Positions 37,670-51,013 of a stretch of 64,000 bases of DNA are shown here, piece by piece. The position numbers were made by a program, and so were the translations under genes. Source of the DNA: Micromonospora sp. PLK6-60 (GTDB taxonomy: Bacteria > Actinomycetota > Actinomycetes > Mycobacteriales > Micromonosporaceae); assembly GCF_019890675.1 (NCBI RefSeq), contig NZ_JAIOAA010000002.1:310001-374000 (forward strand), given 5' to 3'. Below the pieces are notes generated by a model. The model had not been told where the DNA came from and ran no database searches. It saw only the letters and a list, made by a program, of their open reading frames with translations. Positions within the stretch are counted from its first letter, which is position 1. The number at the start of each line of letters is the position of its first letter.

Positions 37670-38014
37670 GTGGTGACGACGCGCACGTTCACCGCGGCGA
37701 CGCCGCTGCGGCTGTATCTGATCTACGACAGCGCCTGCGGCGACTGCGCGGGGATCGCGTCGCGGGCGGCGGCCCTCTTCGCCGTCCCGGTCGCCCTTCG
37801 ATCGTGTCGTGACCCCCGGCCCGACTGGGGGCCCGCGTCGACAGTCCCCGGCCCGCCGTGCCGCCGACCGGTGCTGGTGCTCGTCGGGCCGGGGGACCGG
37901 GTCCGTGCGGTGGCGGGCCTTCGGCTCTGGTGGCACGCCGCGCTGCTGGTGCCCTGGCGGCGCTGGCCCGCCGCGGTCGCCCTGGCCGCCCGGGTGCTGC
38001 GGGCGCGCCGGTGA
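37670..38014 (+). CDS. DCC-type thiol-disulfide protein
   Basis: 114 aa. Near the N-terminus RLYLIYDSACGDCAGIASRAAALF resembles the DCC family (D-x-x-C-x-x-C) with Cys23-Gly-Asp-Cys26. The middle contains a Cys/Pro-rich loop and the C-terminus is amphipathic and Arg/Trp-rich (LRLWWHAALLVPWRRWPAAVALAARVLRARR), probably membrane-associated. Tandem GTGs at 37670 and 37673 lie just after the upstream stop. The second redox protein of the group. Family assignment rests mainly on the short motif. Confidence 0.6.
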   Translation: MVTTRTFTAATPLRLYLIYDSACGDCAGIASRAAALFAVPVALRSCRDPRPDWGPASTVPGPPCRRPVLVLVGPGDRVRAVAGLRLWWHAALLVPWRRWPAAVALAARVLRARR

Positions 38015-38064
38015 CCCGGTGGGACCGGGTCCCGGTGGCGCGGTCGGAGCCGAGTGGAGATCAT

Positions 38065-39060
38065 ATGGGGATGACCACACGCGTACGCCTGACGGAGCAC
38101 GCCCGCGGCGGTGGCTGCGCGTGCAAGATCCCGCCCGGTGAGCTGGAGGCGATGGTGGCCGGCCTGAGCCCGGCGACCGGGACGGCCGAGCTGCTGGTCG
38201 GGCTGGAGAACGGCGACGACGCCGCGGTGGTCCGGCTGGACGAACGGACCGGGCTGGTGAGCACCGCCGACTTCTTCACCCCGGTGGTCGACGACCCGTA
38301 CGACTGGGGCCGGATCGCCGCCGCGAACGCCCTCTCCGACGTGTACGCCATGGGCGGCACCCCGCTCGTCGCGCTCAACCTTCTCTGCTGGCCGCGTGAG
38401 GTGCTGCCGATGGAGCTGGCCCGGGAGGTGCTGCGCGGCGGTCAGGACGTGGCCCGGGAGGCCGCCTGCCACCTGGCCGGCGGGCACAGCGTCGACGACG
38501 ACGGGCCGAAGTACGGGCTGGCCGTCACCGGCGTGGTACGCCCGGAGGAACTGATCACCCTGGACGCGGGTCGGGCCGGGCTGCCGCTGTCGCTGACCAA
38601 GCCGCTCGGGGTGGGCGTGCTGAACACCCGGCACAAGGCCACCGGCGAGGTGTTCGCCGAGGCGGTCGCCACGATGAGCGCGCTGAACCGGGACGCCGCG
38701 CGGGCGGCCGTCGCGGCCGGGGTGCGCTGCGGCACCGACGTGACCGGCTTCGGGCTGCTCGGCCACGCCTCGAAGCTGGCCCGGGCCAGCGGCCTCACGG
38801 TCGCCGTCGACACCGCCGCGGTGCCGTACCTGCCGGGGGCGCGGGAGGCGGTCCGTGACGGGTACGTCAGCGGCGGCAGCCGGCGCAACCTCGACTGGGT
38901 GACCCCGTGGACGGACTTCGGGGCCGCCTCGGACGCCGAGCGGCTGCTGCTCGCCGACGCCCAGACCTCGGGCGGGCTGCTGGTCGCCGGGGAGCTGCCG
39001 GGCGCGCCGGTGATCGGCGAGCTGCTGCCCCGGGGCGAGCACCTGGTGGTGCTTCGCTGA
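38065..39060 (+). CDS. selD: selenide, water dikinase SelD
   Basis: 331 aa. Makes selenophosphate from selenide and ATP for Sec-tRNA or selenouridine. The glycine-rich catalytic loop is G-G-G-C-A-C-K at residues 15-21: Cys18 stands where other SelD have Sec or Cys, and Lys21 is the essential lysine. NGDDAAVVRL, TADFFTPVVDDPYDWGRIAAANALSDVYAMGG and GTDVTGFGLLGHASKLA are conserved AIRS-fold segments. ATG at 38065 with GGAG five bases upstream (ATG at 38071 possible). No selA, selB or tRNA-Sec is seen nearby. It lies 50 bp after the redox genes and could be co-transcribed. Confidence 0.93.
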   Translation: MGMTTRVRLTEHARGGGCACKIPPGELEAMVAGLSPATGTAELLVGLENGDDAAVVRLDERTGLVSTADFFTPVVDDPYDWGRIAAANALSDVYAMGGTPLVALNLLCWPREVLPMELAREVLRGGQDVAREAACHLAGGHSVDDDGPKYGLAVTGVVRPEELITLDAGRAGLPLSLTKPLGVGVLNTRHKATGEVFAEAVATMSALNRDAARAAVAAGVRCGTDVTGFGLLGHASKLARASGLTVAVDTAAVPYLPGAREAVRDGYVSGGSRRNLDWVTPWTDFGAASDAERLLLADAQTSGGLLVAGELPGAPVIGELLPRGEHLVVLR

Positions 39061-39088
39061 GCCGGGTGGCCCTGCCGCCCCCGACTTC

Positions 39089-39187
39089 CGGCAAGACGCT
39101 CCCACCCCCGCTGGGGAGAGCGCGAGGCGCGGCAAGACGTGCCCACCCCGCTGGGGAGAGCGCGAGTCGCGGCGCGACCTGCCCACC
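39089..39187. repeat. about 41-bp tandem repeat, 2.4 copies, after selD
   Basis: Copies at 39089-39129 and 39130-39169 share CGGCAAGACG, CCCACCCC and CGCTGGGGAGAGCGCGAG, with a partial third copy to 39187. Each full copy can fold as an imperfect hairpin (CGCTCCC against GGGGAGAGCG), so the array may act as a multi-hairpin terminator of selD. Confidence 0.75.
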
Positions 39188-39310
39188 TTGGCCTGCGACA
39201 CCCCGGTTTGCGCAAGGTGACCGGGCGCGACGCCATCGGTCGGCGCGCCTGGCGTGGCCTTGCGCCGGCCGGGGCACCATACCCGATAAACTGTCATCTT
39301 CCCGCTACTC

Positions 39311-39336
39311 GGAGCAACGGTGCTCCAGGATTTTTT
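39311..39336 (+). terminator. hairpin with T-run
   Basis: GGAGCA-ACGG-TGCTCC followed by AGGA and six Ts, the classical intrinsic terminator form and rare in this GC-rich window. It lies 250 bp past selD and 114 bp before the next gene. The rest of 39188-39449 shows only low-GC patches such as GATAAACTGTCATC. Confidence 0.65.
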
Positions 39337-39449
39337 GCCCGGAATGGTCACAGACCGGTAACTTGCCCCCGGCTGCGGTCATATGCACCCCACCATCGTT
39401 TTAAGGCCCGATCCGGAGGCCGGTGGGACGAGCACAGCGAGGAGGCGGC

Positions 39450-39929
39450 ATGACCGAGCTGTGGAACTGGAGAATCGACGGGGCACGCCCGGCGGTGGTG
39501 TACCCGGCGCTGGCCGAGGCGCTCGGCCGGGTGGTGATGCCCCTCGCCGCGGCCGACCCGGCGCGGCTGCCCGCGTACGCGGTGGTCTGCGACGTCTGGG
39601 AGGCGCCCGGCAGGTTCGGCACCGTGGTGGACAGCTACGGGGTGCCCGAGCGGCTCTCCGAGCACGCGTCGATCGCGGCGCTCGCCCGGCTGCTGGGGCG
39701 GGACTGCCTGCTCCCCGACGACACCCTGGACGCCGGCCGGCACCTGCTCGTCGCGCCGGACGGCACGGTCCGCCCGGTCCACTTCGACGTGGCGGAGACC
39801 GACGACGGCGAGGTGCTGAGCAATCAGCGGTTGTGCACCTTGGCCGACCCGCGGTGTCGGGGCTGGTCCCGGTGTCAGCGCTCGCGCTGGGCGCCCGACT
39901 CGGTCGCCCCGGTGCTCGCCGCCGCCTGA
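39450..39929 (+). CDS. hypothetical protein upstream of the Fxs operon
   Basis: 159 aa. ATG at 39450 has GGAGG close upstream. The protein is soluble: MTELWNWRIDGARPAVVYPALAEALGRVVMPLAA, YAVVCDVWEAPGRFGTVVDSYGVPERLSEH, LLVAPDGTVRPVHFDVAETDDGEVL, and a Cys/Trp/Arg-rich end (CTLADPRCRGWSRCQRSRW) with three Cys that could bind metal. No family is recognised. It lies 220 bp before fxsA with its own upstream region. Its role in the Fxs system is possible but only by position. Confidence 0.65.
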   Translation: MTELWNWRIDGARPAVVYPALAEALGRVVMPLAAADPARLPAYAVVCDVWEAPGRFGTVVDSYGVPERLSEHASIAALARLLGRDCLLPDDTLDAGRHLLVAPDGTVRPVHFDVAETDDGEVLSNQRLCTLADPRCRGWSRCQRSRWAPDSVAPVLAAA

Positions 39930-40052
39930 CGGCCCGACCACACCAACGGACCGCCGCCGCGCGCCGCCGGCTGATCCGGCCGGGACGCGACGGCGGCGGT
40001 CGGCACCGTCCAATATGGTCCCCACGGGCGGTGCCCGAAGCCGCACCGACGG

Positions 40053-40080
40053 TGACAACCGGTCGAGAGTTGTCTATTCT
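40053..40080 (+). promoter_or_regulatory. fxs promoter with internal inverted repeat
   Basis: -35 TGACAA (40053-40058), 16-bp spacer, -10 TATTCT (40075-40080), about 73 bp before fxsA. Between and partly over the boxes lies GACAAC-N9-GTTGTC (40054-40059 and 40069-40074), a 6-9-6 dyad well placed for a repressor. No regulator gene is adjacent. Confidence 0.6.
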
Positions 40081-40152
40081 GGTCACGGATCGCAGCCCTT
40101 CGAGCCACGCCGCCGCTCGCGCTCCCGCGCCCCGGGCCCCCGGAGACTCATT

Positions 40153-40341
40153 GTGGACCAGACGCCCACCCGTCCGACCCCTCCGTCCCTCGACGCCCTG
40201 ACGCGCAGCCTGCGCACCCCGCTCGGCCGGGTCGCCACCGAGCACCCCGACGCCCTCGCGCTGGTCCGCCTGCGGGTCCTGCCGCAGGCCGCCACGCCGC
40301 CGGTCACCGTCCCCGTCGCCTGCTTCAACTCCGCCATCTGA
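40153..40341 (+). CDS. fxsA: FxSxx-COOH RiPP precursor peptide FxsA
   Basis: 62 aa. The GTG at 40153 has CGGAGA eight bases upstream. The C-terminus is VACFNSAI: F58-N59-S60-A61-I62 is the F-x-S-x-x-COOH motif that names the family, in which a radical SAM enzyme links the Phe ring to a nearby side chain as a cyclophane. The leader shows the usual SLDALTRSLRTPLGRVATEHPDAL. Phe58 is the only Phe and there is no Trp or Tyr, so only one crosslink is likely. Cys57 just before the motif is notable. fxsB starts 3 bp downstream. Confidence 0.9.
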   Translation: MDQTPTRPTPPSLDALTRSLRTPLGRVATEHPDALALVRLRVLPQAATPPVTVPVACFNSAI

Positions 40342-40344
40342 GGG

Positions 40345-43146
40345 ATGGCGTGCCGGTGCGGTGCCGCCGACCCGGACCCGTGCCGCCCGATCAGCCAGTT
40401 CGTCCTCAAGGTGCACAGCCGCTGTGACCTGAGCTGCGACCACTGCTACGTCTATCAGGAGGCGGACCAGACCTGGCGGACCAGGCCGGCCCGGATGGCG
40501 CCGGAGACCGTCCGCGCGGCCGCCGACCGGATCGCCGAGCACGTCCGCGCGCACGCCCTGCCCGCCGTGCACGTCGTGCTGCACGGCGGTGAGCCGCTGT
40601 TGCTCGGCGCGGACGGGCTGCGCGAGGTGTTGGCCACCCTGCGCGCGACCCTCGACCCATGGACCGCCCTCGACCTGCGGATGCAGACCAACGGTGTGCT
40701 GTTGGACGCCGGGCTGTGCCGGCTGCTGGTGGCGTACGGCGTCAGGGTCGGGGTGTCGCTGGACGGCGACCGCGCCGCCCACGACCGGCACCGGATCTTC
40801 GCGCACGGCGGCGGCAGCCACGCCCACACCCGCCGGGCCCTGGCCCTGCTCCGCGAGCCCGCGCACCGGGCCAGCTACGCCGGCATCCTCTGCACCGTCG
40901 ACATCCGTAACGACCCCGACCGGGTCTACGCCGCGCTGCTGGCCGAGCGCCCGCCCCGGATCGACCTGCTGCTGCCGCACGCCACCTGGGACCGGCCACC
41001 GTGGCGACCGGCGGGGGCCGGCACCCCGTACGCCGACTGGCTCGGCCGGATCCACCGGCGCTGGGTGGCCGACGGGCGGCCGGTGCCGATCCGGCTCTTC
41101 GACGCCCTGGCCCCCGGCGGCTCCGCCGCCGGTGGGACCGAGGCGGTCGGGCTCGCCCCGGCCGACCTGCTGGTGGTGGAGACCGACGGCAGTTGGGAAC
41201 AGGTCGACTCGTTGAAGGTCGCCTTCCACGGCGCGGCCGGCACCGACCTGGACGTCTTCGCCCACCCGGTCGACGAGGCCGCCCGGCACCCCGGCGTCGC
41301 GGTCCGCCAGTCGGGGGCGGCCGGGCTCTGCGCCACCTGCCGCGGCTGCCCCGTGGTGGAGCGCTGCGGCGGCGGGCTGTACGCGCACCGCTGGCGGTCT
41401 GGGCGCGGCTTCGACAACCCGTCCGTCTACTGCGCCGACCTGTGGACCCTGATCGCCACCCTGGACCGCCGTCCAGCGGCCGCCGCCGCGACGGTCAACG
41501 GTGACCGAGGCCGCGCCGCCCGCCGGCCGGCGGACCCGATCGCCGAGACCCGGCCCGAGACCCGGCTCGAGGAGCGGCCCGAGACCCGGCCCGCGGAGCA
41601 GCCCCAGATGCGGCCCGAGACGCAGCCCGAGACGCGGTCCGAGACGCGGTCCGAGACGCGGTCCGAGACGCGGCCCGAGACGCGGCCCAGGAACGGGCAA
41701 CTCGTCGATGGCCGGGCCGGGGAGCGGCCCGGGAGCGGGCGGGCGGCAGCGGTCGACCAGCCGGCCGGGGACGGGCAGCCGGGCCCGGACGCGCAGTGGC
41801 TGCTGGACGAGCTGGCCACCGGCCACGGTGGCCCCGCGGCGCTGCGGCTGCTCGACGAGACCCAGCTCTCCATCACCCGGGCGCTGCTGGCCACCTGGCG
41901 GGACGTCGCCGGGGGCAGCGCCGCCTGGGAACTGCTCGCCGACCTCGACGCCACCGCCCCCGCCACGGTCGGCGCGGTGCTGGCGCATCCGTTCGTCCGC
42001 CCGTGGCTGGTCCGCCGGCTGGAGCGCCCCGGCACGCCCGGCGCCGACCTGCTGCCGGCGCTGGCCGCCGCGGCCGCCGTCCGGGCCGGCGTGGCGGCAC
42101 CGGTGACGGTGCCGGTGCGGGCCGGCGCGGTGCTGCTGCCCACGCTGGGCCGGCTGCCGGTGACCGGCCCGTCCGGCGCGCTGGTGACCGCCGTGCCGGG
42201 CGGCTTCCGGATCCGGGCCGGCCCGACCGATCGCGTGGTGCCGCTGACCGCCGGCCCGCCACCGCCCCCCGCGCTCGAACGCGTGGTGCCGCTGACCGCC
42301 GGCCCGCCACCGCCCCCCGCGCTCGAACGCGCGGTGCCGCTGAACGCCGGCCCGCCACCGCCGGCTGCGACCGAACGCGTGACGGCGGGCAGCGGCGGTG
42401 CGCCGCCGTCGCCCCGGACGGCCGAACGCGTGCCGGCGGGCGACGCCGGCGATCCGCCGCCGGCCGGGTGGCAGCCGGTCCGGCGGGTCCCGGTGGCCGG
42501 CGGGGAGGTCGCCGTCGAGGACACCGATCCGGAACGGGACTGCTACGACCAGCCCGTCGCGCCACGGCTCGCCGGCGCCGCCGCGCACGCGCTGGGGCGT
42601 ACCCTCGCCGGGGCCTGGCGGTCGGTGCACCGCGACGTGCCCGCGCATGGTGCGGCGCTCGACGCCGGGCTGCGCTGCGTGGTGCCGCTGGCGGCGGACC
42701 CGGCCGCGCCGCTGCGCAGCGCCACCGCCCGGCAGGCGTACGGCGCGGTCGCGGTGACTCCGGTGCCCGGGCCGGAGACGATGGCCGTGCTGCTGGTGCA
42801 CGAGTGGCAGCACGCCAAGCTCGGTGCGCTGCTCGACCTCTACGACCTGGTCGATCCGGTGTCGGCGCACCGGATCCGGGTGGCCTGGCGGCCCGATCCG
42901 CGCCCCGTCGAGGGGGTGCTCCAGGGCACGTACGCGCACCTGGCGGTGGCCGAGGTGTGGCGTGCCCGGGCGACGGCCGGCGGAGCCGACGCGGCGGCCG
43001 CCCGGGCGCACGCCACCCGCTACCGGGACTGGACCAGGACGGCGGCGGACGCGCTGCTCGCCGGCGACGGCCTCACCGACCTCGGCGAGCGCTTCGTGCG
43101 GCGGCTGCGGCAGGCGGTGGAGGGCCCGGATGCCGGCGGAGACTGA
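40345..43146 (+). CDS. fxsB: FxsB-type radical SAM/SPASM peptide maturase fused to HEXXH domain
   Basis: 933 aa. Radical SAM cluster motif C27-x3-C31-x2-C34 (RCDLSCDHCYVY), AdoMet core, then SPASM cysteines (LCATCRGCPVVERCGGG, about 328-345) that bind auxiliary Fe-S clusters. From about 395 comes a charged ETRPETR repeat linker, a second domain (about 470-625), a Pro-rich repeat linker (about 630-710), and a C-terminal domain with H819-E-W-Q-H823, the HEXXH motif of a putative zinc site. The family forms the Phe-containing cyclophane on FxsA; the HEXXH part may trim or further modify it. The stop lies inside the next gene. Confidence 0.93.
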   Translation: MACRCGAADPDPCRPISQFVLKVHSRCDLSCDHCYVYQEADQTWRTRPARMAPETVRAAADRIAEHVRAHALPAVHVVLHGGEPLLLGADGLREVLATLRATLDPWTALDLRMQTNGVLLDAGLCRLLVAYGVRVGVSLDGDRAAHDRHRIFAHGGGSHAHTRRALALLREPAHRASYAGILCTVDIRNDPDRVYAALLAERPPRIDLLLPHATWDRPPWRPAGAGTPYADWLGRIHRRWVADGRPVPIRLFDALAPGGSAAGGTEAVGLAPADLLVVETDGSWEQVDSLKVAFHGAAGTDLDVFAHPVDEAARHPGVAVRQSGAAGLCATCRGCPVVERCGGGLYAHRWRSGRGFDNPSVYCADLWTLIATLDRRPAAAAATVNGDRGRAARRPADPIAETRPETRLEERPETRPAEQPQMRPETQPETRSETRSETRSETRPETRPRNGQLVDGRAGERPGSGRAAAVDQPAGDGQPGPDAQWLLDELATGHGGPAALRLLDETQLSITRALLATWRDVAGGSAAWELLADLDATAPATVGAVLAHPFVRPWLVRRLERPGTPGADLLPALAAAAAVRAGVAAPVTVPVRAGAVLLPTLGRLPVTGPSGALVTAVPGGFRIRAGPTDRVVPLTAGPPPPPALERVVPLTAGPPPPPALERAVPLNAGPPPPAATERVTAGSGGAPPSPRTAERVPAGDAGDPPPAGWQPVRRVPVAGGEVAVEDTDPERDCYDQPVAPRLAGAAAHALGRTLAGAWRSVHRDVPAHGAALDAGLRCVVPLAADPAAPLRSATARQAYGAVAVTPVPGPETMAVLLVHEWQHAKLGALLDLYDLVDPVSAHRIRVAWRPDPRPVEGVLQGTYAHLAVAEVWRARATAGGADAAAARAHATRYRDWTRTAADALLAGDGLTDLGERFVRRLRQAVEGPDAGGD
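41546..41692 (+). repeat. 12-bp in-frame repeat array in the fxsB linker
   Basis: About twelve head-to-tail copies of a 12-bp unit GAGACGCGGYCC (E-T-R-S/P), perfect in the centre (three E-T-R-S units) and drifting at both ends. It encodes a charged flexible linker after the SPASM domain. Confidence 0.85.
42232..42471 (+). repeat. 48-bp in-frame repeats in the second fxsB linker
   Basis: Units start at 42232, 42280 and 42328 with two more degenerate units to about 42471. Each encodes (E)RVVPLTAGPPPPPAL-like sequence. The first two copies are identical over 48 bp, indicating recent duplication. Confidence 0.85.
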
Positions 43147-43951
43147 GCTGGCCCCGCTCACGCCGCACCGCGTCCGCCTCGTCGGGCAGCTGCGGGCGCT
43201 GGGCCTGCGCGCCGGCGACGACGTGCTGGTGCACAGCTCGCTGCGCCGGGTGCGCCCGGTGGGCGGCCCGGCCACCCTGGCGGCCGCGCTGCGGGAGGTC
43301 ATCGGCCCGGCCGGCACGCTGCTCGTGCCCACCGAGAACGCCGGCAACTCGACGACCTCCCGGGCCTACCGGGCGGCCACCCGCGACCTGGACGCGCGGG
43401 AACTCGCCGCCTACCACGCGGCGATGCCCGGTTGGGACCGGGCCACCACCCCCTCGGCGGGCACCGGGGCGTTCGCCGAGCACATCCGGCTGACCCCGGG
43501 CGCGGTGCGCAGCGACCACCCGCAGACCTCGTTCACCGCGCTGGGCCCCCGCGCCCGCGAGTTCACCGACGGCCACGAGCTGGACTGCCACCTGGGCGAG
43601 CGGTCCCCGCTGGGCCGGCTCTACGCCGCCGGCGGCCAGATCCTGCTGCTCGGCGTCGGCTACGCGGCCTGCACCGCGCTGCACCTGGCCGAGTACCGGC
43701 TGCCGGTGCCGCCGCCGCGCCGCCGCTACCACTGCTATCGGCTGGTCGACGGACGGCGGGTCAGCCTGGAGTTCGAGGCGGCCGACCTGGACGACAGCGA
43801 CTTCCCGCGGGTCGGCGCGGCCCTGGACAGCGCCCCGTTCGTCCGCGTCGGTCGGGTCGGCGACACCGGGGCCCGGCTGCTGCCGGTACGTGACACGGTG
43901 GACCGCGCGGTCGAGTGGTTCACCGCCCACCGGCCGGGTTTCGGGCGTTGA
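43130..43951 (+). CDS. AAC(3)-family N-acetyltransferase in the Fxs operon
   Basis: 273 aa, antibiotic N(3)-acetyltransferase (FrbF/AAC(3)) fold. Visible: GDDVLVHSSLRRVRPVGGPATLAAALREVIGPAGTLLVPTEN, TTPSAGTGAFAEHIRLTPGAVRSDHPQTSFTALGPRAREF, SPLGRLYAAGGQILLLGVGYAACTALHLAEYR. It starts at ATG 43130, overlapping fxsB by 17 bp. The family transfers acetyl from acetyl-CoA to amines; in this operon the acceptor could be the modified peptide or a toxin-like product. Aminoglycoside resistance is possible but not implied by context. Confidence 0.88.
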   Translation: MPAETELAPLTPHRVRLVGQLRALGLRAGDDVLVHSSLRRVRPVGGPATLAAALREVIGPAGTLLVPTENAGNSTTSRAYRAATRDLDARELAAYHAAMPGWDRATTPSAGTGAFAEHIRLTPGAVRSDHPQTSFTALGPRAREFTDGHELDCHLGERSPLGRLYAAGGQILLLGVGYAACTALHLAEYRLPVPPPRRRYHCYRLVDGRRVSLEFEAADLDDSDFPRVGAALDSAPFVRVGRVGDTGARLLPVRDTVDRAVEWFTAHRPGFGR

Positions 43952-44003
43952 CGTGGGGACTACGCTGATGGTCCGGCCGCGTGGGGAGGGCGGAGGCGCA
44001 TCG

Positions 44004-44654
44004 GTGAGCACAGTGGACAGTCCGGTGGGGGTGCCGGCGCCGCTGTTCTTCCTGAGCTACTCCCGGCCGCACCGGGCGGCCGGTGGCCCGTTCGACTACG
44101 TGCCGCAGTTCTTCGAGGACCTGTCGGTCCACGTCAGCGAGCTGGTCGGCCCGGAGCCCGGCGTGGATCCGGGCTTCATGGACAGCACCATGTCCGGCGG
44201 GCAGCGCTGGACCCCGGAGCTGCTCCGCGCCGCCGGCACCTGCCAGGTCTTCGTGCCCCTGCTGTCCAGCGCGCTGCTCGGCAGCGACTGGTGCGGCCGG
44301 GAGTGGCACGCCTTCTCCCGCCGCCGGGTGCTGTCGCGCAGCCCCGGCTTCTCGGCCCACGAGACGGCGATCGTGCCGGTCAACTGGTCACCGACCCATG
44401 AGACGGACCTGCCCAAGGTGGTCCGCGACATCCAGCGGTTCTCGCCGACCCCGATGCCCGCCGACGTGGTGGGCAAGTACGAGCGGGAAGGAGTCTACGG
44501 ATTGCTGACCCTGCGGTTGGAGAACGAGTACCGGGCGGTGGTCTGGCGGCTCGCCCAGCGCATCGTCGCGATCCACCGGGCGTGCCGGATCGAGCCCCTG
44601 GTGCCGGCGGGCGTCGGCGAGCTGCGCAACCTCTTCGCCGGGGGGCGGGGATGA
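44004..44654 (+). CDS. TIR-like protein of the Fxs system (short form)
   Basis: 216 aa. GTG at 44004 with GGAGG seven bases upstream (an ATG at 43968 has none). TIR-fold features: PLFFLSYSRP (beta-A), CQVFVPLLSSALLGSDWCGREWHAF with W96-C-G-R-E100, the WCxxE motif holding the catalytic Glu of TIR NADases, and ETAIVPVNWSP. The remainder (PKVVRDIQRFSPTPMPADVVGKYEREGVYGLLTLR) is typical of Fxs-associated TIR-like proteins. Its stop overlaps the next gene (ATGA). It may hydrolyse or bind NAD+; not shown. Confidence 0.82.
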   Translation: MSTVDSPVGVPAPLFFLSYSRPHRAAGGPFDYVPQFFEDLSVHVSELVGPEPGVDPGFMDSTMSGGQRWTPELLRAAGTCQVFVPLLSSALLGSDWCGREWHAFSRRRVLSRSPGFSAHETAIVPVNWSPTHETDLPKVVRDIQRFSPTPMPADVVGKYEREGVYGLLTLRLENEYRAVVWRLAQRIVAIHRACRIEPLVPAGVGELRNLFAGGRG

Positions 44655-45910
44655 GCCGGCGGGCCGGCGCGGCGGCCACCCGGCGCGGGACGTACTTCTT
44701 CCTCAGCTACGCCCACTCGGTGCCGCCGCACGGCGGGCACACCGACACCGACACCTGGGTGAACCGGTTCTTCGCCGACCTGTCGGCGGAGGTCTCCCGG
44801 CTGGCCCGGCCGGCGGCCGGGATGGGGATCGGCTTCTACGACCAGGAGATCCCGCTCGGCGCGGACTGGAAGGCCGCGTTGGCCGAGGCGCTCGGCCGCG
44901 CCCAGGTCTTCGTGCCGCTGTACTCCCCGGGCTACTTCCGCCAGTCGTGGGCGCAGGGGGAGCAGGCGTCCTTCCGGGGCCGGCTGGCCGTCGCCCCGGG
45001 CGCCGACCCGTCGATCCATCTGGCGCCGGTGCTCTGGATCCCGTCCCCCACCTGGGAGCTGCACCCCGACCTGGTGCCCGCGCGGGCGCTCGGGGAGGGG
45101 CTGCCCCGCTATGCCGAGGACGGGGCGCGGGCGCTGTGCATGCTGGACGTCTACCACGACCAGTACGCCGCCCTGCTGGCCCGGCTGGCCGGCCGGATCG
45201 TGGACGCGGCCGAACGTCACCCGCTCGCCCCGTCCCGGGCACCCGGGCTGGACGAGGTGGCCCGGCCGGCGCCGGCCGACCCGGACCTGGCGGTGGCCGT
45301 GCTGGCACCCACCCGGGACCGGCTGCCCGCCGGCCGCGGCGCCAGCCGGTACGCCGCCACCAGCCGCGGCTGGCGCCCCTTCGGCGACCAGCAGAAGCTG
45401 CCGGCGGCCGAGTACGCGGTCAGCACCGCCGAGCGGCTGGGCCTGTCGGCCCGTCCGGTCGACTTCGACGCCGCGGGTGACCTGCTCGACCGTCGGCCCG
45501 CCGTCCTGCTGATCGACCCGTGGGTGGCGGCGGCGCCCGGCGCGGTGGGCGCGCTCGTCGCGGCCGTGCGGGGCCTGCGGCCCTGGGTGGTGCCCGTGGT
45601 GATTACCGACGCGGACGACCCGCAGAGCGGCGCGCGGCTCGCCGGTGACGTCACCACGATGTTGCAGAATGCGGGCGTAGCGCAGGTCAAGCGGGCGGGC
45701 AGCGTGCGGGAGTTCGTCGCGCTCACCCCCGCGCTGGTCGACGAGGCCCGCCGCCAATACCTGAAACACGGCCCGGTGACGGAGTTCCCCGAGCCGCCGG
45801 AGCCACCGCCCAGCCTCCGGGACGGGCCCCGGCCCCGGCCCGACCGGGCCGAGCAGACGGAAGCCCACGACGACCCGGCGTCACCGTTCCCCCATGGAGA
45901 GAACCGATGA
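44651..45910 (+). CDS. fxsC: TIR-like protein FxsC
   Basis: 419 aa. N-terminal TIR-like domain: YFFLSYAHSVPPHGGHTDTDTWVNRFFADLSAEV, GFYDQEIPLGADWKAALAEALGRAQVFVPLYSPGYFRQSWAQGEQASF, where W100-A-Q-G-E104 keeps Trp and Glu of WCxxE but lacks Cys. The C-terminal half (about 220-390) looks like a second alpha/beta domain (LAVAVLAPTRDRLPAGRGASRYAATSRGWRPFGDQQ; VLLIDPWVAAAPGAVGALVAAV). It overlaps both neighbours by ATGA. Named for the conserved Fxs operon; probably signals with FxsT. Confidence 0.88.
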   Translation: MSRRAGAAATRRGTYFFLSYAHSVPPHGGHTDTDTWVNRFFADLSAEVSRLARPAAGMGIGFYDQEIPLGADWKAALAEALGRAQVFVPLYSPGYFRQSWAQGEQASFRGRLAVAPGADPSIHLAPVLWIPSPTWELHPDLVPARALGEGLPRYAEDGARALCMLDVYHDQYAALLARLAGRIVDAAERHPLAPSRAPGLDEVARPAPADPDLAVAVLAPTRDRLPAGRGASRYAATSRGWRPFGDQQKLPAAEYAVSTAERLGLSARPVDFDAAGDLLDRRPAVLLIDPWVAAAPGAVGALVAAVRGLRPWVVPVVITDADDPQSGARLAGDVTTMLQNAGVAQVKRAGSVREFVALTPALVDEARRQYLKHGPVTEFPEPPEPPPSLRDGPRPRPDRAEQTEAHDDPASPFPHGENR

Positions 45911-48900
45911 GCAACGATCGCGAAGGTCAGGTCGTCACGTTCTACTCGTTCAAGGGCGGGACGGGCCGGACGATGGCCCTGGCCAACGTCGCCTGGATCC
46001 TGGCCGCCAACGGCCGGCGGGTGCTGGTCGCCGACTGGGACCTGGAATCCCCCGGCCTGCACCGGTTCTTCCACCCGTTCCTCGACGCCGAGGCGATCCA
46101 GAACACCAGCGGGGTCATCGACATGATCCGCGACTACGAGTGGGAGACCACCCGGACCGTCGACCGGCCGGACCGCTGGGTCGAGCAGTTCGCCCGGGTC
46201 GGCCGGCACGCCTTCTCGCTGCGCTGGACCTTCCCGGACGGCGGCAGCCTGGACTTCCTCTCCGCCGGCCGGCAGAACAGCGACTACGCGGTGTCGGTGA
46301 GCGGCCTGGACTGGGACAACTTCTACAACCGGCTGGGCGGCGCGCAGTTCTTCGAGGCGCTGCGGGCGGACCTGCGGCGCGAGTACGACTACACCCTGAT
46401 CGACAGTCGCACCGGCCTCAGCGACGTCGCCGACATCTGCACGCTGCACCTGCCGGACACCCTGGTGGACTGCTTCACCCTCAGCGACCAGGGCATCGAG
46501 GGGGCGGCCCGGGTCGCGCACTCGGTGCGGGACCGGTTCCGCCGCCGCGACATCCGCATCCTGCCGGTGCCGATGCGCGTCGACCAGGCCGAGAAGGAGA
46601 AGGCCGAGGCCGGCCGCTCGCTGGCCATGCGCCGGTTCGCCGGGCTGCCGACCGGGATGACCGAGGCGGAACGCCGGCGGTACTGGGCCGCGGTGGAGGT
46701 GCCGTACCGGCCGTTCTACGCGTACGAGGAGACGCTGGCGACCTTCGGCGACCCGCCCGGCTCACCGACCTCGCTGCTGGCCGCGTTCGAGACGCTGACC
46801 GGGATCCTCACCGACGGCGAGGTCACCGCGCTGCCGGTGATGGACGAGTCGGTCCGGGAACGGGGCAAGGCCCGCTTCCGGCGCCGGACCGAGGCGGTCG
46901 ACGACCAGATCGTGCTCCGGTACGCCCCCGAGGACGCGGTCTGGGCGGAGTGGCTGGAGCGGGTGCTCACCGCGGCCGGGCTGCGGGTGGTCGAACCGGC
47001 CGCCGCGGTCGGCTCGGCGGCCAGCCCGGCGCCGCGGACGCTGACCGTGGTCTCGCCGGCCTACCTGGCCACGCCCGCCGGCAGCCTGCCGCCGCGGGAG
47101 CCGAGCACCGGCTCGACGGCCCTCGCCGCCTACGTGGCCGACCTGCGACCGCTGGCGGAGTTCCCGGCGCAGGCCTCCGCCCAGCTGGTCAACGTCAGCG
47201 CGGAGACCGCCGTGGAACGGGTGCTGCGGCTGGTCGGCCGGCCCGTGCCGCCGGCCGCCCAGGGCGCGCCGGCCGGCGCCGCCCGCTATCCCGGCGCGGA
47301 GCCGGCGATCTTCAACGCGCCGAACCGCAACGCCCGGTTCACCGGCCGCGAGGACGACCTGGCGGAGCTGCGCCGGCAGTTGCAGAGCGGGGGCAGCGCG
47401 GTGGTGCTGCCCGTCGCCCTGCAGGGCATGGGCGGCGTCGGCAAGACCCAGGTGGCACTGGAATACGTGCACCGCTTCCGGTCCGCGTACGACCTGGTCT
47501 GGTGGATCGTGGCGGACCCGCCGCAGTTCGTCGACACCTCGGTGGCCGACCTGGCGCCGCGGCTGGACCTGCCCACCGGGCCGACGCTGCCGGACACCGT
47601 GCAGACCGTGCTCCAGGCGCTCGGCCGCGGCGAGCCGTACGAGCGGTGGCTCGTCGTCTTCGACAACGCCGAGGAGCTCGAACACATCGAGCAGTTCCTC
47701 CCGCAGGGCTCCGGGCACGTGCTGCTGACCTCGCGCAACCGGGCGTGGGGGGAGCGGGCCAACCCGATCCAGGTGGACGTCTTCGACCGGGCGGAGAGCG
47801 TCGCCCACCTCACCCAGCGGGTCCCGGCGATCAGCCCGGAGGAGGCGGACCGGGTCGCCGAGGCGCTCGGCGACCTGCCGATCGCGGTCGCCGCGGCGGG
47901 CGCCTGGCTGGCCGAGACGGGCACGCCGGTCCCCGACTACCTGCGGCTGATCGAACGGCACGGGCCCAGCGCCCTGTCGGTGGAGGCCACCTGGGACCTG
48001 TCGCTCAACCGGCTGCGGGACCAGGCCCCGGCCGCCTACCGGCTGTTGCAGCTCTGCTCGGTGCTGGCGCCGGAGATCGCCCTGGACCTCATCTACAGCG
48101 ACGAGATGGCCGGCGCGCTGGTGGCGTACGACCCGTCGGTCTCCGAGCGGCTGGTGCGCGGCGCCCTGGTCCAGCAGATCAACCGGCTGGCGCTGCTCAA
48201 GCTCGACGTGCAGGGCGGCCGGATCCAGGTGCACCGGCTGTTGCAGGCGGTGGTCCGGGACCGGATGACCCCGGAGGAGATCGCCGAGGCCCGGCACCAG
48301 GTCCACCTGGTGCTGGCGGCGTCCCGGCCGCGCGGCGACGTGGACGACCCCGCGACGTGGCCCCGGCTGCGGATGCTCTGGCCGCACCTGGAGGTGTCCG
48401 AGGCGGTCACCTGCCCGGAGGAGTCGGTGCGCCAACTGCTCATCGACCGGGTCCGTTACCTGTGGCAGCGCGGCGGCCTGACCCAGGCCGAGGAGTTCAG
48501 CCAGCAGGTGGACGAGCTCTGGTCGGGGCAGCTCGACGGGCCGGACGGCGGCGGGGCGTTGCCGCGGCAGCTGCTGCACCTGCGGTTCAACCGGGCGAAC
48601 ATCCTGCGCAGCCTGGGCCGGTTCGCCGAGGCCCGGGAACTCGACGAGGCGGTCCTCGCCGAGCAGCGCCGGGTGCTCGGCGAGCTGCACCCGCACACCC
48701 TGATGACGGCCGGCAGCCTCGCCGGGGACCTGCGGGCCCTCGGCCGGTACGGCGAGGCGCTGGACCGGGACCGGGCCACCTACGCCTCCTGGGTGCAGGT
48801 GCTCGGTGAGGACGACCGCCGGACGTTGAGCGCTGCCAACAACCTCGCCGTGTCGTACCGGCTGGTCGGCGACTACCGGGCGGCCCGGCGCTGGGACGAC

Positions 48901-49767
48901 GAGGTGCACCAGCGGCGGCGGCTGGTGCTCGGCCCGACCAACCCGTACACCCTGATCTCCGCGGTCCGGCTCGGTACGGACCTGCGCGAGGCCGGCGAGT
49001 ACGAGAAGTCGGTGGCGCTGCTGCGCGGGGTGCTGGACAGCTTCGTGCAGGTGCTCGGCGCGGAGGACCAGCAGACCCTGACCGCGCAGGTGAACCTCGC
49101 GGTGTCGATGCGCAGCGTGGGCCGGCCCGCGGAGGCCGCGCCGATGTTCGAGGCCGCCTACCGGACGCTCGTCGACCGGTTCGGGCCGCACAACCCGGAC
49201 ACGGTGGCCTGCCGGTCCAGCCGGGCGGCGAACCTGCTGGCCGTGCAGGACGAGGCCCGGGCGCTGGCCGAGATGAACGTGGTGGCCCGGGCGTACGAGG
49301 AGGTGCTGCGCCTCGGCCCGACGCACCCGCACACGCTGGCGACGCTGAGCAACCGCTCCGCCGCCGAGCGTGCCCTGGGCCGCCGTTCCGCGGCCCGGGC
49401 CACCGCCGGCCGGGCCGCGGAGGAGCTGCGCAAGGTGCTCGGCACGGACCACCCGCACACCCTGGCCGCGGAGGTCAACCACGCGGTCTGCCTGGCCGAG
49501 GACGGCGACTGGGAGCAGGCCCGGGACCGGCTGCGCGACGTCGCGGAGCGGCTCGCCCGCGCGGTCGGCGCGGGCCACCCGGACACGCTGCGCTGCCTCG
49601 GCGACCTGGCCCTGGTCACCCGGCGGGCCGGGGGCGGCGGGCCGGAGGCGGACGACGCGGCCGCGGCCGACCGGCTGGCCGACGTGATCGGGCAGGACCA
49701 CCCGAGCGTGCAGACGTTGCGGGAGCGCCGGCTGGTGGTCCGGGTGATCGACCCGAACCCGTTCTGA
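45907..49767 (+). CDS. fxsT: FxSxx-COOH system MinD-like/NB-ARC/TPR protein FxsT
   Basis: 1,286 aa. Residues 1-300 form a MinD/ParA-like P-loop domain with deviant Walker A K16-G-G-T-G-R-T-M and VLVADWDLESPGLHRFF; a possible second TIR-like region follows (DDQIVLRYAPEDAVWAEWLERVLTAAGLRV, about 335-420). At about 475-800 is an NB-ARC/STAND NTPase (FTGREDDLAELRRQL; P-loop G507-M-G-G-V-G-K-T; RWLVVFDNAEE; HVLLTSRN). From about 860 to 1265 are TPR-like repeats spaced 42 residues with the H-P-x-T-L motif. STAND proteins oligomerise on sensing a ligand. Last gene of the operon; overlaps fxsC. Confidence 0.9.
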   Translation: MSNDREGQVVTFYSFKGGTGRTMALANVAWILAANGRRVLVADWDLESPGLHRFFHPFLDAEAIQNTSGVIDMIRDYEWETTRTVDRPDRWVEQFARVGRHAFSLRWTFPDGGSLDFLSAGRQNSDYAVSVSGLDWDNFYNRLGGAQFFEALRADLRREYDYTLIDSRTGLSDVADICTLHLPDTLVDCFTLSDQGIEGAARVAHSVRDRFRRRDIRILPVPMRVDQAEKEKAEAGRSLAMRRFAGLPTGMTEAERRRYWAAVEVPYRPFYAYEETLATFGDPPGSPTSLLAAFETLTGILTDGEVTALPVMDESVRERGKARFRRRTEAVDDQIVLRYAPEDAVWAEWLERVLTAAGLRVVEPAAAVGSAASPAPRTLTVVSPAYLATPAGSLPPREPSTGSTALAAYVADLRPLAEFPAQASAQLVNVSAETAVERVLRLVGRPVPPAAQGAPAGAARYPGAEPAIFNAPNRNARFTGREDDLAELRRQLQSGGSAVVLPVALQGMGGVGKTQVALEYVHRFRSAYDLVWWIVADPPQFVDTSVADLAPRLDLPTGPTLPDTVQTVLQALGRGEPYERWLVVFDNAEELEHIEQFLPQGSGHVLLTSRNRAWGERANPIQVDVFDRAESVAHLTQRVPAISPEEADRVAEALGDLPIAVAAAGAWLAETGTPVPDYLRLIERHGPSALSVEATWDLSLNRLRDQAPAAYRLLQLCSVLAPEIALDLIYSDEMAGALVAYDPSVSERLVRGALVQQINRLALLKLDVQGGRIQVHRLLQAVVRDRMTPEEIAEARHQVHLVLAASRPRGDVDDPATWPRLRMLWPHLEVSEAVTCPEESVRQLLIDRVRYLWQRGGLTQAEEFSQQVDELWSGQLDGPDGGGALPRQLLHLRFNRANILRSLGRFAEARELDEAVLAEQRRVLGELHPHTLMTAGSLAGDLRALGRYGEALDRDRATYASWVQVLGEDDRRTLSAANNLAVSYRLVGDYRAARRWDDEVHQRRRLVLGPTNPYTLISAVRLGTDLREAGEYEKSVALLRGVLDSFVQVLGAEDQQTLTAQVNLAVSMRSVGRPAEAAPMFEAAYRTLVDRFGPHNPDTVACRSSRAANLLAVQDEARALAEMNVVARAYEEVLRLGPTHPHTLATLSNRSAAERALGRRSAARATAGRAAEELRKVLGTDHPHTLAAEVNHAVCLAEDGDWEQARDRLRDVAERLARAVGAGHPDTLRCLGDLALVTRRAGGGGPEADDAAAADRLADVIGQDHPSVQTLRERRLVVRVIDPNPF

Positions 49768-49802
49768 CCGTCGTCGCGCCGCTCGCCGGGCGCGGTTCGC
49801 CC

Positions 49803-49898
49803 GGCACCGGCCCGGCCGGTCTCAGCGGCACCGGCCCGGCCGGTCTCAGCGGCACCGGCCCGGCCGGTCTCAGCGACACCGGCCCGGCCGGTCTCAGC
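49803..49898. repeat. four tandem 24-bp units with internal dyads
   Basis: GGCACCGGCCCGGCCGGTCT + CAGC repeated four times (49803, 49827, 49851, 49875), the last with one base change. Each unit contains ACCGGC-CCG-GCCGGT, so the array can form up to four hairpins between the convergent fxsT and hydrolase genes. The hydrolase stop codon (49894-49896) lies inside the last unit. Confidence 0.9.
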
Positions 49899-50826
49899 GG
49901 CGCCGGACGTCGGCCAGTTCGGGGGTGGTCAGCCAGGCGAGGGTCTGCGGCAGGATCTCCACCGCGCCGAAGTGCGCCGCGCCGGGCTGCACCTGGACCT
50001 CGGCGTTGGTGATGCGGTCGGCGAGCCACCGGGAGTGCGCCACCGGGGTGAAGCGGTCCTGCTCGCCGTGCCACAGCCGCACCGGCGCCCGGATGGCGCC
50101 GAGGTCGAAACCCCAGCCCCGGCGCAGGGCGAGCACGTCGTCGATCCAGCCGTCCGGGCCGTGCCGCAGCGCCTCCGCGTACATGGCGGCCAGCAGGCGG
50201 CGGATCGTCACGTCGTCCACCACCCGGATGTCCGGCTCGGTGAGCTGCGGGCGGAGGAACTCCAGCAGGGTGACCGGGTCCCGCTGGGCGTCCTGGGCGC
50301 GCAGGGTCAGCGACAGCCGTAACTCGGCGGCGTCCTCGTCGGCCAGGCCGAAGTCGTCGACGTTCGCGTCGGCCATGCCGGCGTACCAGTCGAGGTCGGG
50401 GGAGCCGGCGGGGGCGAGCCCGACCAGCACCGCGGCCCGGGTCACCCGCTCCGGCAGCAGCGCGGCGCAGGCCAGGGCGTGCGGGCCGCCGCCCGAGCGG
50501 CCCACCACGGCGAACCGCTCGAGGCCCAGGTCGTCGGCGATCGCGGCCACGTCGGCCGCCGCGTCGGCCACCCGGCGACCCTCCCGCCGGTCCGAGTCGC
50601 CGTAGCCGGGCCGGTCGTAGCAGACCAGGTGCACCCCGAGCCGGTAGAGGACGACCGGGCGGGGGCGGGGGCCGCTGCGGCTGCCGGGAGTGCCGTGCAG
50701 CAGGAACACCGCGGGCCCGTCGGGCGCGCCGGAGGTCTCCACCGCGAGTCGCCGCCCGTCGGGGGTGACGACGGTGCGCTGCGCGTCGTTTTCCAGCGTC
50801 ACGGTGGCCTCCCGCGGGTTCGTCAT
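49894..50826 (-). CDS. alpha/beta hydrolase
   Basis: 310 aa. Alpha/beta-hydrolase fold: VFLLHGTPGSRSGPRPRP (oxyanion loop), nucleophile elbow G-R-S-G-G-G-P-H-A-L, APVRLWHGEQDRFTPVAHSRWLADRI (acid Asp) and GAAHFG (catalytic His). ATG at 50826 (MTNPREATVTL) is preferred; upstream in-frame sequence resembles non-coding DNA. Possibly an esterase or epoxide-hydrolase-like enzyme; substrate unknown. Divergent from miaB across 187 bp. Confidence 0.88.
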   Translation of the reverse strand: MTNPREATVTLENDAQRTVVTPDGRRLAVETSGAPDGPAVFLLHGTPGSRSGPRPRPVVLYRLGVHLVCYDRPGYGDSDRREGRRVADAAADVAAIADDLGLERFAVVGRSGGGPHALACAALLPERVTRAAVLVGLAPAGSPDLDWYAGMADANVDDFGLADEDAAELRLSLTLRAQDAQRDPVTLLEFLRPQLTEPDIRVVDDVTIRRLLAAMYAEALRHGPDGWIDDVLALRRGWGFDLGAIRAPVRLWHGEQDRFTPVAHSRWLADRITNAEVQVQPGAAHFGAVEILPQTLAWLTTPELADVRRR

Positions 50827-51013
50827 GTGCTCCCCCGAAGCGGAGACGCGCATCGGTGGCGCAAAGCCCCCGAAACCGCCCAGAACACAGTCCTGCTGTG
50901 CAGCGTACTGCCCGGCGTGTGCCCCCGCCATGGGCCGGCGGGCCAATGCCGGCCGGCGGGCCCGGCCGACCGGGCCGCTACCCTGGTAGCCCGAGGAAAG
51001 GGGCGCCGAGCAG

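Follow-up and report, generated by a model that had tools for sequence, protein, structure and literature searches.

What becomes of a 62-residue peptide with a single aromatic residue, and which enzyme acts on it? This question is raised by a short gene in a stretch of 64,000 nucleotides from Micromonospora sp. PLK6-60, hereafter called the window. A sequence-only reading had described the gene as a precursor peptide gene with a GTG start, located beside FxsB, whose product carries one Phe, neither Tyr nor Trp, and a terminal F-x-S-x-x motif. It had predicted a unique crosslink centred on Phe58, detectable as a loss of 2 Da, and had suggested that Cys57 could form a disulfide, thioether or lipid link. 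Here, we compare the gene, its operon and its precursor core with those of related loci.

Identity of the fxsA gene

The translation of the open reading frame, VDQTPTRPTPPSLDALTRSLRTPLGRVATEHPDALALVRLRVLPQAATPPVTVPVACFNSAI, starts from GTG and ends with VPVACFNSAI (Table 1). Phe58 is the only Phe and the adjoining Cys57 the only Cys, Tyr and Trp are absent, and F-N-S-A-I is terminal, as had been read from the sequence. Three bases separate the stop codon from the ATG of fxsBH.

Table 1. Coordinates of the features discussed, as positions in the window
Feature	Position	Strand	Evidence
Promoter-like GTGACA-17-TATTCT upstream of fxsA	40052..40080	+	sigma-70-like scan; alignment
RBS-like GGAG, 7 nt 5' of GTG	40142..40145	+	invariant in 15/15 aligned sequences
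fxsA, 62-aa precursor peptide	40153..40341	+	translation; TIGR04268 18 bits; 15 orthologs
Val55-Ala56 codons, predicted HExxH-domain target	40315..40320	+	invariant 16/16; V(-3) counts
Cys57 codon, lineage-specific	40321..40323	+	Cys at -1 in 1/162 precursors
Codons Phe58-Asn59-Ser60, predicted three-residue cyclophane	40324..40332	+	FxS motif; MscB precedent
fxsBH, 933 aa, radical SAM/SPASM + aKG-HExxH fusion	40345..43146	+	TIGR04269 534 bits (cut-off 370), TIGR04267 146 bits (cut-off 40)
Radical SAM CxxxCxxC (CDLSCDHC), fxsBH residues 27-34	40423..40446	+	sequence
HExxH (HEWQH), fxsBH residues 819-823	42799..42813	+	sequence; aligned H, E, H intact
AAC(3)-family acetyltransferase-like, 273 aa	43130..43951	+	PF02522 241 bits (cut-off 25); overlaps fxsBH end
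fxsC1, TIR-like	44004..44654	+	NF040588 156 bits (cut-off 130)
fxsC2, TIR-like + FxsC C-terminal domain	44651..45910	+	NF040588 149 bits, TIGR04276 72 bits
fxsT, 1286 aa, KGGVGR-variant ATPase, NB-ARC, TPR	45907..49767	+	NF040586 979 bits, NF047398 141 bits

Fifteen orthologs with identities of 50-81% were aligned with FxsA, the nearest named relatives being Micromonospora. Val55, Ala56, Phe58, Asn59, Ser60 and Ile62 are among the residues constant in all 16 aligned sequences. The GTG start is supported because GTG with a preceding GGAG recurs in every one of the 17 clade members listed and the 15 sequences aligned, the window being counted in both sets. The promoter-like element upstream is the sole sigma-70-like match within 39000-50000 (shuffled mean 0.1); in its block, TGACA is constant and TATTCT or TATCCT is present in 15/15 aligned sequences, including the window. 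Substitutions relative to four sister genes peaked at the third codon position (6/10/21, 10/10/21, 6/6/11 and 11/9/17 for the three positions).

The arrangement also recurs. We collected 53 named loci and excluded L058, which holds a C-terminal FxsB fragment. In all 52 remaining loci, an ORF ending in FxSxx was located at most 200 nt 5' of the FxsB match or slightly overlapped it; 81 of the 11,097 ORFs of at least 35 codons in the same loci, fxsA included, have this ending. The recurrence of the upstream FxSxx ORF exceeds chance. A chance ORF would fit the small size, the GTG start and a family score under the cut-off, yet the start, the GGAG and the C-terminus are conserved in relatives, where the substitution pattern is coding-like, and the probability of this reading is negligible. 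The frame is confirmed as a genuine fxsA gene by its translation and its conservation.

As a short peptide with C-terminal FxSxx, FxsA corresponds to the description of family TIGR04268. Its score lies under the annotation cut-off of 28 bits, and the earlier remark that the gene is easy to miss was apt: nine of the ten orthologs scanned (15 were aligned) also remained below it. The tenth, from locus L006, reached 29 bits and is 76% identical to the window's FxsA, so the latter is homologous to a family member above the cut-off. The missed cut-off serves annotation and does not itself mark a biological feature. The gene does adjoin an FxsB above its cut-off (Table 1), and FxsA is an ordinary member of the known FxSxx RiPP family in an operon of known type. 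In the family, 225 of 354 genomes had an FxsB above the cut-off, as did 200/343 in the genus of genome G107, 79/394 in the class and 11/396 in the phylum; the FxsA peptide itself is one among very many.

The operon and its surroundings

The partner enzyme had been named as FxsB, but the intact aKG-HExxH domain fused to it had been overlooked. FxsBH exceeded the cut-offs of the models for both halves, and its HEWQH motif is intact. Against NF040587, which represents the form with an inactivated extension, it scored 157 bits, under the cut-off of 225; with its intact motif, FxsBH is not of that form. Among solved structures, it matched the ChlB radical SAM chain 9gm3 (3.6e-67) and chain 22nu (2e-52). 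Because the oxygenase domain had been overlooked, a test for a loss of 2 Da alone is incomplete; with the domain intact, a gain of 16 Da or backbone cleavage is possible as well.

The window's fxsBH contains two in-frame tandem repeat arrays, at 41543-41688 (12 bp x 12.2) and 42228-42381 (48 bp x 3.2), which are located in the linker and in a stretch that does not align with chain 22nu. They accompany a protein of 933 aa, compared to 805-812 aa in the sister loci L006-L009.

The acetyltransferase-like gene can also be read as a longer ORF (42824-43951), which scored 159 bits against NCBIfam AAC_3, under the cut-off of 270. The best solved-structure match of its product is FrbF (3sma), and its substrate may be the FxsA-derived peptide, not an aminoglycoside. 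Among 194 fused loci (copies kept), FxsC was present in 182 and an AAC(3)-like gene in 109. The latter occurs beside intact (67) and lost (42) HExxH domains alike, and no clean rule connecting AAC(3) with the precursor core emerged.

Read from the sequence, the likely start of fxsC1 is the GTG at 44004, inside ORF 43890-44654, and that of fxsC2 lies inside ORF 44582-45910, with an ATGA overlap between the two genes. FxsC2 exceeded the cut-offs of both NF040588 and TIGR04276. FxsT matched the Pfam families PF00931 and PF13424. PADLOC returned no outstanding anti-phage family in the operon; its matches, all weak or partial, linked the radical SAM part with pVip and the N-terminal ATPase of FxsT with PDC-M28B.

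Upstream of the operon, ORF 39423-39929 encodes 168 aa with 83-91% identity in 15 Micromonospora loci and had no family match in Pfam or NCBIfam. Further upstream, 37858-39060 matched selD (selenide, water dikinase) above the cut-off. On the 3' side, a convergent alpha/beta-hydrolase gene (49894-50946, minus strand) stands beside miaB. An apparently conserved plus-strand ORF, 49925-50605, was rejected, as it is the antisense frame of the hydrolase gene. That antisense frame gave tblastn matches 3' of FxsT in numerous loci, Streptomyces among them, and their recurrence suggests either a stable chromosomal position or, possibly, a further component.

Sequences used for the co-variation analysis

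The input comprised 253 sequences, namely the window, L006-L057 and L070-L269; L058 and the short loci L001-L005 and L059-L069 were excluded. The loci are a non-random sample: the search patterns for the named loci included the HExxH region, and the 200 further stretches were chosen from score-ordered lists, among the matches listed. Two truncated sequences (L020, L042) and 56 without a strict FxSxx precursor were removed, leaving 195. After removal of rows identical in the last 25 aa and in HExxH state, 162 distinct precursors remained.

The HExxH domain is intact in 111 of these and lost in 51. Of the intact ones, 99 are fused, and the other 12 are encoded by a separate gene or in a broken frame. 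The lost rows consist of 50 fused proteins whose motif is gone and L185, a short protein in which no HExxH domain was found. The domain model that decided between intact and lost was built from intact members. For L245, the nearer of two candidate ORFs was used, which is probably the wrong one; this row counts as intact without V. L025 was omitted from the tree only. A set with relaxed precursor assignments was analysed in addition, and some of these look spurious, for example L223, L246, L259, L264 and L266. Both F and S of the motif were fixed by the search pattern; therefore, their invariance is not a result.

Cys57 in related precursors

A bond at Cys57 could be argued from its being the sole Cys of the peptide, next to the Phe predicted to be crosslinked, and from the neighbouring radical SAM/SPASM enzyme, whose class includes thioether-forming maturases and which is the only operon protein that could make a thioether. 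The comparison did not bear out the special role proposed for this residue. Among the 162 distinct precursors, Cys at -1, directly before the core Phe, was found only in that of the window, and six have a Cys somewhere within their final eight residues; a conserved Cys, as in a thioether- or lipid-linked peptide, is thus lacking. Likewise, one of the 16 aligned sequences has Cys at this position, which is Ala, Gly or Leu in the remainder, and we rejected Cys57 as a family feature. The matches of FxsBH to thioether-maturase models were far under the cut-offs (PapB, 72 bits vs 340; RumMC, 37 vs 720), and scans of the operon proteins with NCBIfam and Pfam models found no lipid-attachment enzyme. 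As far as these sequences tell, there seems to be no reason to assign Cys57 a bond, and a thioether, disulfide or lipid link at this residue is highly improbable.

Co-variation of the precursor core with the HExxH domain

Val at position -3 from the Phe, the position of Val55 in FxsA, was present in 87 of the 111 precursors whose HExxH domain, either fused or encoded nearby, is intact, but in none of the 51 whose domain is lost. The split appeared in both subsets, with 76/91 intact and 0/34 lost rows in the first part and 11/20 and 0/17 in the later part. Val(-3) was missing in 24 intact rows. At position -2, Ala was found in 88 of the intact rows and S, Q or T in 20. Gly, which has no beta-carbon, occurred at neither -3 nor -2 in the intact rows, compared to five and two, respectively, of the 51 lost rows. 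Elsewhere in the core, intact rows tolerate Gly, at -1 in 12/111 and at +1 in 25/111; the latter count led us to discard +1 as a general hydroxylation site.

Single loci illustrate the pattern. The precursor of L143, in which HExxH is lost, reads APEGSF, whereas its nearest HExxH-bearing relatives read VAVAAF, VSVAAF or VLVAAF. For several V-x-x-F precursors with a short FxsB, a separate HExxH protein is encoded nearby (L053, L170, L182, L189). A regular-expression HExxH match in L148 proved spurious on alignment.

A few further loci are recorded here in their own right. The second FxsB of the window's genome (L187, on G000:C34) accompanies a precursor with VAGWNSAM, in which Trp replaces Phe, and a separate HExxH protein. 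L168 and L241 encode long FxsBH relatives with a degraded HExxH, and their precursor has AAFNSEIGG plus a C-terminal extension, so that FxS is not terminal. L240 has two HExxH domains, the first fused and the other about 1.2 kb beyond it; its precursor ends in ISFSSAMM.

Because related rows are not independent, the counts reduce to about five well-supported independent contrasts, which alone remain below significance. The FxsB tree for the first set shows six changes of HExxH; in five well-supported pairs, V changed the same way in four to five and the other way in none. Five supported pairs of the larger strict set gave a mean of 3.3 the same way and 0 the other way for V (sign-test median p 0.25), and 2.7 and 0.5 for A(-2). 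Thr at -1, which its counts had made look diagnostic of HExxH loss, was rejected as such a marker, as independent pairs went the same way in 0.1 and the other way in 0.7 of five. For the extended set (188 rows), seven supported contrasts gave 3.5 the same way, 0.2 the other way and 3.3 without difference for V (median p 0.25). There, V(-3) occurred in two of 65 rows without HExxH, the FxN-type L173 and L174, near which no HExxH domain was found, and three intact rows had Gly at -3 (two) or -2 (one); several precursors of this set seem to be wrongly assigned.

A Pagel-type likelihood test, in which some fitted rates lay at their bounds, yielded LR 26.0 (p 3.2e-5) for V(-3) and LR 14.4 for A(-2). 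Control positions gave LR 14.6 (p 0.0055) at +1, 5.0 at +3 and 8.9 at +4; the p-values are inflated, since control +1 also reaches p 0.0055. The V(-3) signal is nevertheless largest where it was predicted and exceeds that of the three controls. Since V(-3) splits by HExxH state and Gly is absent from -3 and -2 in the intact rows, Val55/Ala56 would be the target of the HExxH half. That hydroxylation takes place there has, judged from the co-variation, about an even chance.

Provided that the co-variation is real, it tells which residues deserve attention as regards the HExxH half, beyond the test for a loss of 2 Da, and the HExxH-lost lineages offer natural controls. The predicted target, residues 55-56, lies just outside the range 57-62 considered in the sequence-only reading. 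Text searches of the literature, with most subscription papers outside their scope, found no Val or Ala target of an FxsBH, a silence that is weak evidence of novelty.

Proposed maturation and alternative readings

We propose that FxsA matures into a RiPP of the triceptide type, which contains a cyclophane. The ring of Phe58 would be joined to the beta-carbon of Ser60 (-2.016 Da) by the radical SAM/SPASM half of FxsBH. The aKG-HExxH half would then oxidise Val55-Ala56, just before the ring in the sequence, most likely by beta-hydroxylation (+15.995 Da), and the matured C-terminal peptide would probably act on the operon's TIR-like and NB-ARC/TPR proteins as a signal or effector. For untagged FxsA that keeps its Met, the monoisotopic masses calculate to 6594.568 without modification, 6592.553 with the crosslink and 6608.547 with crosslink and one hydroxyl. 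We regard this proposal as a whole, with cyclophane, Val55-Ala56 oxidation and signalling role, as quite probable. Of the possible products, a Phe58-Ser60 crosslink is best predicted, since the radical SAM/SPASM enzyme MscB joins Phe C4 to Ser C-beta, according to a review (PMC12636437 or PMC11002830). Judging from such published relatives, the crosslink is very probable, and the unique Phe58-centred crosslink foreseen earlier stands as a prediction. The signalling role, which draws on a published proposal, is tentative, at somewhat below an even chance.

Two readings compete with hydroxylation at Val55-Ala56. V-A-x-F may be conserved because the radical SAM half recognises it or because of shared ancestry, and not as a target of the HExxH domain. 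The number of well-supported independent contrasts, only about five, and the co-variation of control +1 speak for this explanation; yet the radical SAM half is retained in HExxH-lost lineages that lack V(-3), and the V(-3) signal is stronger than at the three control positions. We consider it somewhat unlikely. The main rival accepts the target and changes the reaction, Val55 and Ala56 standing side by side: alpha-oxidation of Ala56 by the HExxH half would cleave the backbone, giving a keto-capped C-terminal cyclophane and an amidated leader, and would make FxsBH maturase and release enzyme in one. According to a preprint (PMC12636437 or PMC11002830), the aKG-HExxH enzyme PosC cleaves at Ala, by a proposed alpha-oxidation, and beta-hydroxylates a Val put in its place. 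Ala at -2 in 88 of the 111 intact rows would suit such a cut, no dedicated protease was found among the operon proteins scanned, and the HExxH family was earlier proposed (PMC7159879) to release a C-terminal peptide. S, Q or T at -2 in 20 intact rows argues against cleavage, as Ser or Gln at the PosC site is reported in the same preprint to abolish it, and a fused relative is described as a beta-hydroxylase. Because S, Q or T replaces Ala(-2) in these 20 rows, hydroxylation, a predicted activity of the HExxH half, is preferred, and cleavage is unlikely.

A broader statement joins three elements: FxsBH would be a self-contained maturase and release enzyme, one half making the cyclophane and the other oxidising Val55 or cutting at Ala56; the crosslinked peptide, perhaps acetylated, would once mature be an intracellular signal for the TIR/NB-ARC proteins; and lineages that lost the oxygenase would repeatedly have lost the V-A-x-F strip. 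Taken jointly, all three being correct is decidedly unlikely.

Comparison with known systems

FxsA and its operon share the terminal FxSxx, the adjacent FxsB, and FxsC and FxsT with the FxSxx-COOH RiPP systems (TIGR04268 and TIGR04269); they differ in a peptide score below the TIGR04268 cut-off and in the presence of Cys57. As a triceptide, with an aromatic ring-C-beta bond at i+2, FxsA is a predicted one, purely by precedent. The InterPro number of MscB is presumably that of the FxsB family. MscB is likened to FxsBH by its described chemistry: in the review cited above, this radical SAM/SPASM enzyme links C4 of Phe with the beta-carbon of Ser, and its class crosslinks i to i+2.

With ChlBH, FxsBH shares the two-domain fusion of radical SAM and aKG-HExxH and the match to the ChlB chain given above. 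According to a preprint citing the work (PMC12636437 or PMC11002830), the fused protein beta-hydroxylates Asp and His on a preformed cyclophane, whereas the predicted target of FxsBH is Val55/Ala56. PflC and PosC likewise are HExxH oxygenases acting on RiPP precursors; as far as they are described there, they work on runs of Gln and on an ARMD motif with no radical SAM half mentioned, and are probably standalone enzymes.

A further parallel in gene content is with the standalone peptide-processing systems of a study in eLife from 2020 (PMC7159879), in which the peptide is suggested to be a toxin or a signal and the natural role of FxS operons is a prediction. Common to both are an HExxH protein, a small precursor, an AP-ATPase/TPR protein and an inactive MinD/ParA-like domain. 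The HExxH domain is called a peptidase there, and the window has, in addition, a gene of the AAC(3) type and a pair of FxsC genes.
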